Shown: piece after piece, positions 8,105 through 26,890 of the stretch
Numbering within the stretch: the first letter of the stretch is position 1
How the letters are laid out: each line of letters opens with the position of its first letter
From: Pontixanthobacter rizhaonensis
GTDB taxonomy: Bacteria > Pseudomonadota > Alphaproteobacteria > Sphingomonadales > Sphingomonadaceae
Direction of reading: 5' to 3'
Assembly: GCF_012972675.1 (NCBI RefSeq)
Contig: NZ_JABCRE010000002.1
Span: forward strand, 423,001 to 487,000
DNA length: 64,000 bases
Program-made: the position numbers and the translations under genes
The notes under the pieces: model-generated
Told to the model about the DNA's origin: nothing
The model's database searches: none
Seen by the model: the letters and a program-made list of their open reading frames with translations, nothing else

Positions 8105-9805
8105 GTGTCTGTGGCCTGTAAATTGCGCGGTTCTACAGTATCGAAAGCGGCTCTGGGTTGCGGGATCGCTATGCTGGCCATGCCGGGCGCATCGGTGGCT
8201 CAGGCACAGTCGAGTGCTCCGGTAGTTTCCCGGCCAGTGGTCCAACCGCTGCCGCCAGCTGAAGTGACCAAACTCAATTCTGCCTTGCGAGTGCTTGCCC
8301 GTAATTCGCAGAATATCGGCGCTTTGATCGACGCGGGCAATGCGTCATTGGCGGTCAATGATATTGATGCGGCGATTGGGTTTTTTGGTCGCGCCGATGA
8401 TCTTTCACCCAACAATCCGAGAGTGAAAATTGGTTTGGCCGCGGCATTCGTTCGGACACAGCGCCCGATAGAGGCACTGGCCCTATTTGACGAAGCTGAG
8501 CGTGCCGGAACCTCTGCGGGTGCGTTGGCGATGGATCGCGGGCTTGCCTATGATTTGGTCGGCGACAATGCCGCGGCGCAGCGGTATTATCTTCAGGCCC
8601 TTAACGGACGCGAGAATACAATAGCGCGCCGCCGTTTTTCACTCAGCCACGCAATCGCCGGTAATCGCGAAGAGTTTGAGGCGGTGTTGCTGCCTCTGCT
8701 TGAGGCGCAGGATTTTGCATCTTACCGGACCAGAGCTTTCGGCCTTGCTATATTGGGTGAGGAAGATGAAGCAATCGCCATTACCGAAGCTGTTATGCAG
8801 CGCGATATGGCGGCACGAATAGCCCCGTATTTGCGGTACATGCCGCGCCTCACCAAAGCACAGCAAGCTGCCGCTGCCAATCTTGGGATATTCCCCCGGG
8901 CGGCCCAAATCGGCCGGGATACCCCGCAAATTGCAGGGTATATCGGACGGGCGGAGGCCGGACGGAACGCGGATGCCCGCTTAACGCCGCAAGGGCAGCC
9001 CTTGGGGGCCAAGCCGGACAATACCAGCCAGCGCCGCCGCCCCGACAGGGGTGGAAGCGCGGTTGAGCCGGTGCGTTTAGCGGCGGTGGAAGCAATACCG
9101 AGTGCCGGTGCCTCTACAGCCACGTCACCAGCGGCGACGCCAGCGGCGCCAATAGCTGCACCAGCAACGCCTACTCCGGAGCCAGCAGCGCTTACGCCGG
9201 AGCCGACGCCGGAACCAGTCACGCCGGTTCCAGCACCAGTGGCCGTGGCGCAGGCAGCGTCCGGCACGGCTTCATCGTCTGTGGCGGTGAGGGAAGAGGC
9301 CAGCGGATTCGATTTGGCAGACGTTGCACAGCCGATTGCGACCACGTCCAATCCTGTCGTTCAGCCTATTCCGCCCAAGCCAGAGAGTGTGGCGGAGGCG
9401 TTTGCCAATCTGTCGCTGGAAACGGTGCCCGCCGCGAAGCCGACCGGCGGTGTTGATATTACCGCGATCAAGCCTCCACGCGAAGTGGCCCAAAAGCCAG
9501 TTGCTGAGAAAAAGGCCGAACCGGAAAAGCCCAAGCACCCCCGGCGCTTCTGGGTGCAAATCGCCACGGGTAAAGATCGTAGCGCACTGCGCTTTGACTG
9601 GCGGCGGATAAGCCGCAAGGCAGATGGCGATCTAGAGGGAAAAGGACCATTTGTGACCCCTTGGGGGCAATCCAACCGATTGCTGGCAGGTCCGTACAGC
9701 ACGTCTAAAGCTGCGCGTAATGCTATGAATTCATTGAAAGAAAATGACATTGATAGCTTTACCTTCACTAGCCCGGAGGGGCAGGAAATCGAAAAACTGC
9801 GCTAG
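8105..9805 (+). CDS. Exported SPOR-domain protein with TPR-like repeats
   Basis: The product is probably a periplasmic peptidoglycan-binding protein. From the GTG at 8105 it has 566 residues: a signal peptide with a hydrophobic core and an Ala-x-Ala-like cleavage near SVAQAQS, TPR-like helical repeats at about 60-250, a long Pro/Ala/Glu-rich region (about 320-470, with repeated PEPxP units) and a C-terminal SPOR domain from about 477 (RFWVQIATG ... LLAGPYSTSKAARNA). SPOR domains bind denuded glycan strands at division sites, which fits the position directly after ftsZ. An upstream ATG at 8030 would bury the signal peptide, so GTG 8105 is preferred. Confidence 0.8.
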   Translation: MSVACKLRGSTVSKAALGCGIAMLAMPGASVAQAQSSAPVVSRPVVQPLPPAEVTKLNSALRVLARNSQNIGALIDAGNASLAVNDIDAAIGFFGRADDLSPNNPRVKIGLAAAFVRTQRPIEALALFDEAERAGTSAGALAMDRGLAYDLVGDNAAAQRYYLQALNGRENTIARRRFSLSHAIAGNREEFEAVLLPLLEAQDFASYRTRAFGLAILGEEDEAIAITEAVMQRDMAARIAPYLRYMPRLTKAQQAAAANLGIFPRAAQIGRDTPQIAGYIGRAEAGRNADARLTPQGQPLGAKPDNTSQRRRPDRGGSAVEPVRLAAVEAIPSAGASTATSPAATPAAPIAAPATPTPEPAALTPEPTPEPVTPVPAPVAVAQAASGTASSSVAVREEASGFDLADVAQPIATTSNPVVQPIPPKPESVAEAFANLSLETVPAAKPTGGVDITAIKPPREVAQKPVAEKKAEPEKPKHPRRFWVQIATGKDRSALRFDWRRISRKADGDLEGKGPFVTPWGQSNRLLAGPYSTSKAARNAMNSLKENDIDSFTFTSPEGQEIEKLR

Positions 9806-9987
9806 TCTGAGCTCGCGCCACTTGGTGCTTTTGCACAGAGTTTGAACAGGCAATTTTACTTCTCCCCAGCCACTGTATCAGTTGGCATTGCGCCAAACGG
9901 GCCGCCGCTTCATCCCGCCAATATGATATTTGGTAATCGGCCTTTTAACGTTATTGCGTTTAGCCACTCACGTGAAAGCCTTTCTCT

Positions 9988-10494
9988 ATGAGAGTGGCTC
10001 AACACGCCTTTCCCGGTAATGATGATGCTGCACCAGTCGATATGCTGGCCGCTTTGTTTGAAGCGCGCGGTTGGCCATTTGAAACCTTGTCACCCGAAGA
10101 ATTGTCAGGCGAAATCCAAGGCAGTTGGACCAAATATCAAATGCGGGCGATCTGGCGTGCTGAAGACAAGGTGCTCCAGCTTTTGTGTTTGCCCGATATC
10201 CGTGTGGCGGACGATAAGCTGACGGGTGCTTACGAGCTGCTGGCGCTGGTCAATGAACAGATGTGGCTTGGTCATTTCGATGTTTGGTCAACCGGCAACG
10301 TGTTGGTCTATCGCAACGGCGCAATGCTGGGCAGTGGCGGGATGATGGGGCTCGATCAGGCGCAGGCGATGGTCGAAACGGCAGTGGAAGAATGCGACCG
10401 GTTCTACCCCGCGTTCCAGTTTGTACTGTGGGGTGACAAAGCGCCGCGTGATGCGCTGGATAGCGCGCTTGTCGATGCGGCTGGTGAGGCTTAG
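9988..10494 (+). CDS. YbjN domain-containing protein
   Basis: A soluble acidic protein of 168 residues that resembles the YbjN family (alpha/beta fold related to type III secretion chaperones). Family-like features are the N-terminal alpha-helical segment followed by WRAEDKVLQLLCLPDIRV, the ALVNEQMWLGHFD segment and a C-terminal helix with DQAQAMVETAVEECDRFYPAFQF. The biochemical role is not known in alphaproteobacteria. It lies 29 bases before proC in the same direction, a common sphingomonad pairing, so the two are probably co-transcribed. The 182 bases upstream hold no gene that I can see. Confidence 0.75.
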   Translation: MRVAQHAFPGNDDAAPVDMLAALFEARGWPFETLSPEELSGEIQGSWTKYQMRAIWRAEDKVLQLLCLPDIRVADDKLTGAYELLALVNEQMWLGHFDVWSTGNVLVYRNGAMLGSGGMMGLDQAQAMVETAVEECDRFYPAFQFVLWGDKAPRDALDSALVDAAGEA

Positions 10495-25434: not shown

Positions 25435-25567
25435 AGCCGAATCCAGACAAAAATGTCGTGACTTTGGTTGCGGCAGCCTGAGGGCGACTGCCCGCCGCAG
25501 CTTATGCTGCGAAGCCAAGCGAGCCGGATGGCTAGCGCCCGGCGTTTGAGGGTCAAATTAAAAAAGG

Positions 25568-25616
25568 AAAATGGTGCCGGCTACACGATTCGAACGCGTG
25601 GCCTGATGATTACAAA
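25568..25616 (-). repeat. Left copy of the 49-bp direct repeat (tRNA-Thr 3' fragment, att site)
   Basis: This copy matches bases 26811-26859 exactly, covering the tRNA-Thr from the anticodon loop to the CCA end. Beyond 25616 the sequence departs from the tRNA, so it is not a functional tRNA. It marks the distal junction of the integrated element. Confidence 0.92.
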
Positions 25617-25653
25617 GCTAAATGACCCACGGTTTTCTGAGGTTTTCTGTCTG

Positions 25654-25701
25654 AAATCGTTCCAACATCGTGTCGTATTTCCGTAAATGTTGGAACGATT
25701 T
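25654..25701. repeat. Perfect 15-bp inverted repeat inside the element's left end
   Basis: AAATCGTTCCAACAT (25654-25668) pairs with its exact complement at 25687-25701 across 18 bases. The inner 9-mer ATGTTGGAA recurs as a palindrome at the other end of the element. It lies 20 bases past the cargo gene's stop and has no following T run, so it may be a recombinase or operator site rather than a terminator. Confidence 0.85.
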
Positions 25702-25721
25702 TGCCTATGAAACGGTCATTG

Positions 25722-26669
25722 CTAATCGGATAGGAAGTCTGTTTGGCGAGGTGGAGGAGTAACTAGATGCACCTCGGTTATTCGATAGGTTGCCCGGCCC
25801 AATATAAGGCCTTGTGGATCCAAGAATGCTCGCTCAAACATCGTGACGTTCAGGATGCTGTTTGGCGGAGCGCTAACTCTGTTTTCTTGGAACTCGATCA
25901 CCCAATCTGCTGCCGCATCGACCATCTCGGCCGAAATGGCCCGGCCGTTCCATAAAAATGACCATTGAGCGGTTCCTTCATACTGTGCAGATTTGATCCG
26001 AAGATCTCCGCGAATTGTCGAAACGCTCTCTTCTGGGATACGTTCAAAAGGTGTGCTCGGGAGATCTTCAATCTCATCGGCATCGTTGTAGTCGAATTCG
26101 ACTACTTCCTTATTATCCTGGATGAATGTTAGGGTGCTGTACCCTTCGCTATGCAGCGGACTGAGTAAGGCTTTTGCTTTGTCGATCATCCGTGGCTCTT
26201 GAGCCAATTCATATACGGGCCGTGGAACAATGATGGTATTGCCGTTGCCAGTTATGACAGTGCTGCCATCACCGTGGTTCTCGACGCGGAGTGGATCAGC
26301 TTTATTCGCGTTCGCTGTCAACCATTTGAGGAAAGTCAACAACCCCACTGAGCCAGCGACTCCGATACCAATCCATTCTGCAATCTCGCGAGCTGTCTTG
26401 GCATTTTCTGATCCAAGAAGATCCTTCGCTTGATCCAGAAAAGACTGAACCAGGCTGATATCTATCATGAAGCATTTTTGCTCAACGTCTGTGTTCACCA
26501 AGACTTTAATCTCAGTCTGCGAACCATTGAACTTTCGATTGGCCGTTTGGATCATATCTGCGAGCGCCAGCAGGGCTGGTGCGAGATCCTGAACGTCCAT
26601 CTCATGATCTACCAACGCGGGACCATCATACTTCAGAGTTGTGCGAGCGTGCTTACTCATTTCAGCCAT
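25722..26669 (-). CDS. Uncharacterised protein, sole cargo of the tRNA-Thr element
   Basis: The 315-residue product has an N-terminal alpha/beta domain (about 8-90, LKYDGPALVDHEMDVQDLA then a helical ALLALADMIQTANRKFNG), one hydrophobic segment at about 97-117 suitable as a membrane anchor, a Gly/Asn-rich strand (GDGSTVITGNGNTIIVP, about 134-149) and a beta-rich C-terminal half. No catalytic motif is evident. ATG 26669 has GAGGGA 7 bases upstream; further in-frame ATGs upstream lack a site. Codon use and base composition are more AT-rich than the flanks. A defence or maintenance role is possible from its place as lone island cargo, but nothing in the sequence proves it. Confidence 0.75.
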   Translation of the reverse strand: MAEMSKHARTTLKYDGPALVDHEMDVQDLAPALLALADMIQTANRKFNGSQTEIKVLVNTDVEQKCFMIDISLVQSFLDQAKDLLGSENAKTAREIAEWIGIGVAGSVGLLTFLKWLTANANKADPLRVENHGDGSTVITGNGNTIIVPRPVYELAQEPRMIDKAKALLSPLHSEGYSTLTFIQDNKEVVEFDYNDADEIEDLPSTPFERIPEESVSTIRGDLRIKSAQYEGTAQWSFLWNGRAISAEMVDAAADWVIEFQENRVSAPPNSILNVTMFERAFLDPQGLILGRATYRITEVHLVTPPPRQTDFLSD

Positions 26670-26725
26670 TTGTTCCCTCACTGATGAACCACAAATTGTC
26701 CATAATGCAGTTGATGCCAACACTT

Positions 26726-26771
26726 ATGTTGGAATTCCAACATAAAAAAGTTGGAATGTTTCAAATGAAAC
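26726..26771. promoter_or_regulatory. Palindrome cluster upstream of the cargo gene
   Basis: ATGTTGGAATTCCAACAT at 26726-26743 is a perfect 18-bp palindrome. It is followed by GTTGGAATG (26750-26758) and a second palindrome GTTTCAAATGAAAC (26758-26771). All are within 105 bases before the cargo start. The 9-mer ATGTTGGAA also forms the inverted repeat at the opposite end of the element. They could be operators or recombinase arm sites. Confidence 0.6.
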
Positions 26772-26810
26772 TTCTTCTTAGTCGGGCTAACGCATTGTTT
26801 TCAAATGGGA

Positions 26811-26859
26811 AAAATGGTGCCGGCTACACGATTCGAACGCGTGGCCTGATGATTACAAA
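26811..26859 (-). repeat. Right copy of the 49-bp direct repeat (3' part of intact tRNA-Thr)
   Basis: Identical to 25568-25616. Here the repeat continues into the intact 5' half of tRNA-Thr, so this junction reconstitutes the functional gene. Confidence 0.92.
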
Positions 26860-26890
26860 TCAACTGCTCTACCAACTGAGCTAAGCCGGC
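26815..26890 (-). tRNA. tRNA-Thr (TGT)
   Basis: The 76-base gene on the minus strand begins GCCGGCTTAGCTCAG and ends in an encoded CCA. The acceptor GCCGGC pairs with the 3' GCCGGC, and the T arm has TTCGAAT. Anticodon TGT is at 26857-26855, with loop TTTGTAA. The anticodon stem GTTGA/TCATC has a T-T mismatch at positions 28-42. It is the integration target of the adjacent element. Confidence 0.93.

Follow-up and report, generated by a model that had tools for sequence, protein, structure and literature searches.

The 64,000-nucleotide stretch of Pontixanthobacter rizhaonensis DNA analysed here (the window) harbors, in a tRNA-Thr(TGT) gene, a 1.2-kb island that is probably a non-autonomous integrative element, in which one cargo gene is enclosed by the attL and attR sites of a phage tyrosine integrase and which, as read from its sequence, would occupy the anticodon loop of the tRNA. 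What is new here is the presence at both ends of the island of arm-type half-sites of the kind that accompanies a divergent phage tyrosine integrase. The open question addressed is by what route single defence-candidate genes that lack mobility genes pass from genome to genome, and the identification of the attachment site, the arm sites and a matching integrase family makes mobilisation by a helper phage directly testable.

The repeat finder returns a 49-nt direct repeat with 100% identity and a start-to-start distance of 1243, the right copy of which comprises tRNA positions 32-76 and 4 nt beyond the 3' end (Table 1). An earlier note on this DNA had described a perfect repeat of the 3' part of tRNA-Thr(TGT) bracketing a single gene, and ARAGORN, the repeat finder and the ORF listing agree on this arrangement: the single long ORF between the copies extends from 25722 to 26723 on the minus strand (333 codons), translation likely begins at the ATG at 26669, just 5' of which a GAGGG is visible by eye, and the remaining ORFs between the copies comprise 50-101 aa. 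No sigma-70-like promoter was found in the island region. The GC content of the insert is lower than that of all 629 segments of equal length sampled each 100 bp (lowest 0.474), and the flank-repeat score of the island is 49, as against 8-14 for 417 of the 427 other genes of the studied loci, which excludes chance as the source of the repeat. The intergenic sequence beside the island at 25481-25552 is a dispersed repeat, with similar copies elsewhere in the same genome (81%) and in many relatives.

Table 1. Features of the tRNA-Thr(TGT) island in the window and repeat-bracketed LAPAL genes at other loci.
Feature	Sequence	Position	Strand	Basis or description
tRNA-Thr(TGT), intact	window	26815-26890	minus	ARAGORN
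Left 49-bp att repeat copy, displaced native 3' part of tRNA-Thr	window	25568-25616	minus	repeat finder; continuous with native left flank in G005 and G004
Right 49-bp att repeat copy, within intact tRNA	window	26811-26859	minus	repeat finder
Insert body	window	25617-26810	no strand	GC 0.473
Native left flank of site	window	25461-25567	no strand	aligns through joined junction in G005 and G004
P' arm, inverted half-site pair (TTCCAAC 25660-25666, GTTGGAA 25689-25695)	window	25660-25695		motif positions
P arm half-sites (GTTGGAA 26728-26734, TTCCAAC 26735-26741, GTTGGAA 26750-26756)	window	26728-26756		motif positions
Cargo gene LAPAL_fam / PDC-S42, 315 aa	window	25722-26669	minus	ORF and profile matches; start chosen by eye
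LAPAL at start of prophage small-terminase gene	G057 (L111)	8526-9771		repeat of 68 positions, 2 mismatches; gene start duplicated
LAPAL at 3' end of small ORF	G638			48-bp repeat; target by reading
LAPAL at tRNA-Asn	G290 (L065)	8664-10108		46-bp perfect repeat; LAPAL gene broken
LAPAL at hairpin-like intergenic site	G1283			40-bp repeat; target by reading
LAPAL between 71-bp attC-like repeats	L158	5140-6307		probable integron cassette

The joined flanks of the island align through the junction in two relatives, G005 (274 columns, 84%) and G004 (277 columns, 82%), and in both the empty site ends exactly at the repeat. These uninterrupted tRNA-Thr(TGT) sites are what the earlier note had proposed to look for in related genomes and, together with the arm-type sites at both ends, they bear out its reading of the insert as a tRNA island. 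Four further relatives (G001, G003, G006 and G007) carry one intact tRNA-Thr with no second copy in the 5.5-6.5 kb examined; similarity starts there only at about the repeat and the left flank is not alignable, so that these represent an unoccupied tRNA rather than a matching left flank. In G002 (77% complete), tRNA-Thr was not found among the matches listed. A single pattern for the tRNA-Thr 3' part matched 17 of 199 family genomes, with two copies in the window's genome only, and among the genomes searched the insert is present in that genome alone. The identity of the two repeat copies had been taken to indicate recent or maintained integration, a conclusion that falls because the single copies in G001 (48/48 bases) and G005 (46/46 bases), both of which lack the island, are equally conserved, and tRNA conservation alone can explain identical copies. 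The region beside tRNA-Thr is variable, judged by its spacing from a queF-like gene, which is ~6 kb in G005 (L052, G005:C1:366842-373036) and <1.5 kb in G004.

Half-sites GTTGGAA/TTCCAAC occur twice at the left end of the island (P') and three times at the right end (P). Matches to TGTTGGAA number five in the 64 kb, four of them in the two arms; this total is not unusual, being reached in 5 of 100 shuffles, and it is the clustering alone that is unusual, with at least two half-sites in each 150-bp arm in none of 20000 mononucleotide shuffles. The exact 26-base core is found in no viral contig, and the core pattern with a chosen neighbour is found in one, with a single half-site. A gapped pattern taken from the window's P' arm matched 46 viral stretches; 43 of these were judged by motif positions only, and the other three (L190, L194 and L210) contain further half-site copies in an attP layout around part of a tRNA-Gly. 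The P-arm pattern matched 12 viral contigs, eight of which have an integrase of the family represented by P0002, the L210 integrase, in the DNA examined (in one case by way of a further locus on that contig) and nine of which have tRNA sequence beside the arm (five full genes by ARAGORN, four parts by eye). One of these, L251, has the arm beside a tRNA-Thr(TGT), with the integrase frame ~570 bp away; neither an integrase nor a tRNA is seen in L252 and L255, and the contig of L249 ends first. Judged by these motifs, the island has the appearance of one gene enclosed by a complete phage att pair.

P0002 was recognised by eye and is 100% identical to the integrase of L194; it has no Pfam match, and its match to phrog_1 is at 3e-7. 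For three full-length relatives the phrog_1 matches range from 6e-14 to 1e-25, and a match to the Pfam family Phage_integrase is either below the cut-off or absent. Integrase searches based on Pfam can thus overlook the family. The six integrases used first had no match near the P'-pattern pairs, with one weak match in L218, ~9 kb off. Relatives of P0002 lie at eight viral loci, two of them of the query's own kind, and named phages with related annotated integrases (~26% identity) include Paracoccus phage Psul1 and EBPR podovirus 2. Among 148 relatives searched with P0002, eight had a match, seven of them much weaker than that of G101, whose integrase is 46% identical to P0002; the window's genome (G000) and seven other genomes of the genus gave no match at E 0.001. 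No integrase lies between the repeats, as the earlier note had stated, no P0002 or Pfam recombinase match lies at tRNA-Thr in the window's genome, and the four Pfam-detectable tyrosine recombinases of that genome, two of which adjoin tRNA-Ser(cga) and tRNA-Lys(ttt), respectively, are all distant. Near the end of contig C4 of this genome (L069 17916-19574, G000:C4), a tRNA-Lys(ttt) and a 538-codon frame with an integrase may form a further island.

The closest counterpart of the island ends is found in G101, where a prophage with a P0002-type integrase occupies a tRNA-Arg and spans ~40 kb between 54-bp perfect repeats. The half-sites lie 44/73 from the core on the P' side in the window and 45/73 in G101, and 83/76/61 and 80/73/57, respectively, on the P side, a correspondence suggesting that the island consists of the ends of a G101-like prophage, between which a single gene replaces the phage. 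Arms were read in nine integrase relatives (the eight viral loci and G101) and are present in L231, L232, L233 and G101; L234-L238 have no half-site cluster in the DNA examined, with exact heptamers only counted. With a tRNA core flanked by P and P' half-sites in a conserved layout, the island has what marks an att site of the P0002/G101 family; five of the nine relatives are without a cluster, and either the link between this integrase family and the half-site motif is not universal or the motif varies. Relative to the tRNA, the arm is located 5' in L251 and 3' in both the window and G101, and either orientation of the symmetric anticodon stem-loop may be usable by the P0002 family. The integrase family itself is seen 5' of the tRNA in some phages (L251 9811-9960, L239 2400-2565) and 3' in G101.

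The cargo, which the earlier note called unknown, belongs to a described family: it matches NCBIfam LAPAL_fam (NF053583) at 194.2 bits, over the curated cut-off of 60 bits, PADLOC PDC-S42 at E 8.5e-50 and phrog_3243 (function unknown) at E 4.3e-30, and has no Pfam match over cut-off. NCBIfam names LAPAL_fam a putative phage structural protein. PDCs are presented, in an excerpt of PMC12988326, as single-gene candidates from 'guilt-by-embedding' that are largely unvalidated (see also PMC11514479, in excerpt). By its family membership the cargo is a candidate phage-defence gene, and it most likely acts alone. In the open-access papers searched, the term PDC-S42 does not occur and, among the matches listed, no title or abstract concerns such one-gene elements. 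The distribution of LAPAL is scattered. A protein search finds it in 7 of 397 family genomes, and profile searches, with the own genome included, find it in 13 of 396 genomes of the order (7 over cut-off), 6 of 385 of the class (5 over cut-off) and 18 of 329 of the phylum (13 over cut-off). By tblastn, the cargo has no match in 50,697 phage records and four partial, distant matches in 72,556 plasmid records; a scan of genome contigs with an alignment of five proteins yielded 8 homologues where the single protein yielded none. Phage contigs, too, contain LAPAL as an accessory gene, beside an integrase in L107 and between tail genes in L109, and in L108 it lies in a contig with Mu-like ORFs (by eye). 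In Qipengyuania sp. S6317L1 (L101 5471-12592), LAPAL and an integrase share a ~7-kb stretch beside tRNA-Ser(cga) that has a 19-bp repeat (one mismatch) of the 3' end of this tRNA, which has an integrase beside it in the window's genome as well.

Only G16, G49, F67, W236 and V300 are invariant in 24 LAPAL sequences. An AlphaFold2 model of the cargo built on these 24 sequences has a mean pLDDT of 84.9 and a pTM of 0.67. Foldseek searches with the model found no PDB entry at E 0.001 or better, the best being weak OB-fold matches, and four BFVD entries at that level with TM-scores of 0.27-0.44, namely three uncharacterised phage proteins and one DUF6575 protein; the sequence profile had three PDB matches, the best at E 0.19. 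LAPAL proteins share a hydrophobic, Gly-rich stretch near residue 96, and the best 19-residue hydropathy window falls at residues 55-100 in 23 of the 24, exceeding 1.6, a usual transmembrane threshold, in only nine of the 24. From family membership and this hydrophobic segment only, we infer that the cargo is perhaps a phage-defence protein acting at the membrane, the idea of a transmembrane segment being weak.

The gene also stands alone between repeats elsewhere. We tested 48 LAPAL loci and dropped three at contig ends, leaving 45; the duplicates L103-L104 and L005-L006, L119 and L120 (no LAPAL by profile) and the 57-codon L144 were left out. The best flank-to-flank repeat score is 62, 50, 49, 48, 46 and 40 in six loci, 17 in one and at most 13 in 38. 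Five of the 45, each at a different target (Table 1), hold a single LAPAL gene bracketed by repeats that span 40-68 positions, and the sixth high-scoring locus, L158, looks like an integron cassette on account of what are presumably attC features. This answers the question raised in the earlier note of whether homologues of the cargo stand alone at tRNA genes: they do so at tRNA-Asn in G290, and at other sites as well. The locus scoring 17 (L118 in G036), with a diverged terminator-like repeat around LAPAL, is excluded from the five. Cassette-like repeats also lie near LAPAL in L155. Among the 427 other genes of the LAPAL loci, six score at least 39 (by reading, two are cassette-like and four lie in repeated coding-like sequence), which gives a Fisher p of 0.0003 for 6/45 loci and 0.002 for 5/45, in a set gathered by homology and not a random sample. 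One gene family as the sole content of repeat-bracketed inserts provides a search rule for finding more.

G290, G057, G638 and G1283 have no Pfam-detectable tyrosine recombinase within 20 kb on the same contig, a search in which divergent integrases can be missed and the G638 contig covers only 6.7 kb. A P0002-family profile found no integrase across the LAPAL loci, and hence no larger element with both LAPAL and a P0002-type integrase. The G290 site is empty in G409, where the alignment runs through the junction (691 columns, 75%); of four other loci tried, that in G155 is interrupted by ~230 bp, that in G390 aligns on the left side only and two have no match on the tested strand. The G290 element has a motif of its own, ACTGTGGCTT, of which its two ends together contain three copies; the search for a helper with this arm motif found none and gave one chance coding match, and G057, G638 and G1283 have no repeated motif common to both ends.

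Two histories fit the island, that of a minimal element carried by helpers and that of a remnant left by a large prophage deletion, in line with the two alternatives of the earlier note, and we favour the first on the grounds that at five targets this gene is found by itself and that no phage gene is left. The island would have entered by site-specific integration, with an integrase, now absent, supplied by a P0002/G101-type phage, and could leave again when a helper integrase is at hand. Alternatively, a helper prophage would integrate beside the island in the same tRNA and the pair would be excised together; such tandem integration and joint excision would be the simplest transfer route, as for CIMEs, and the 1.2-kb island would add ~3% to a 40-kb phage genome. 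The deletion history, which has a lesser but real chance of being correct, holds that a prophage of the P0002/G101 family with LAPAL near its P' end resided in tRNA-Thr and lost everything from the LAPAL promoter to the P arm, leaving a now immobile scar. A single deletion would be enough, the island ends are those of a full prophage, and LAPAL is known as an accessory gene from the three phage contigs mentioned above (L107, L109 and L108); yet between the repeats there is neither a phage gene nor another ORF >101 aa, LAPAL recurs alone between long repeats at five different targets, and the search for an element combining it with a P0002-type integrase found none.

As to the role of the cargo, it is rather unlikely that LAPAL is a phage accessory or structural protein and not a defence protein: the NCBIfam name and the position between tail genes in L109 speak for such a role, but the single-gene islands, the probable integron cassette and the membership in PDC-S42 fit a stand-alone gene of benefit to the host better. 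That LAPAL is itself an unrecognised recombinase moving its own gene would account for five inserts, each bracketed by repeats at a target of its own, that contain no other gene, but is very improbable, given that the five residues invariant in 24 sequences include no evident catalytic set, that the gene is also found in phages and probably as an integron cassette, and that the window ends match the sites of another integrase. Least probable of all is that the repeat has nothing to do with the gene and arose when a tRNA was duplicated or by homologous recombination. Fragments of tRNA genes without islands do exist in general, but here the repeat marks the exact end of the empty site in G005 and G004, and paired arm sites lie at both ends.

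Returning to the helper-carried element, we tentatively propose, as a possibility to which we give well below even weight, that the island exemplifies a class of phage 'att cassettes', each a stand-alone gene with one complete phage attachment site that would be mobilised when a temperate phage passes by and lends its integrase, in the way that integron integrases mobilise integron cassettes; being small, they could travel inside the helper genome, and LAPAL (PDC-S42) would be a frequent cargo. If this is true, att cassettes would give single-gene defences a route of spread that needs no mobility gene of their own.

Among known systems, the integron gene cassette likewise combines one gene with a recombination site and takes its integrase from elsewhere, but whereas integron cassettes have attC sites and stand in arrays, the island lies in a tRNA gene, its ends form a phage-type site with arm sites, and it apparently has neither an attC nor an array. 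With temperate phages of the P0002/G101 family it shares the tRNA repeat and the layout of P and P' half-sites, but it contains neither an integrase nor a phage gene. It is not a phage satellite, for satellites have their own integrase, regulators or packaging-interference genes and the island has one gene only. CIMEs, as described in an excerpt of PMC5704250, derive from ICEs or IMEs and have kept attL and attR but lost the integration and transfer genes; their transfer is there described as tandem integration of a helper followed by joint excision (PMC5704250; compare PMC3146451, both in excerpt). Like them, the island keeps both att copies at its ends without an integration or transfer gene; unlike them, with their origin from ICEs or IMEs and movement by conjugation, it is a phage-integrase site with one gene in 1.2 kb, and since its ends match a phage-type integrase family and not an ICE or IME, it falls outside the CIMEs as so defined. 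The Dehalococcoides ssrA islands, 15 of which are without an integration module according to an excerpt of PMC3146451, are similarly bounded by RNA-gene repeats, but differ in their serine recombinase, tmRNA gene target and larger cargo. By analogy, the island would work like a CIME or an integron cassette, but with a phage-type site and one gene.
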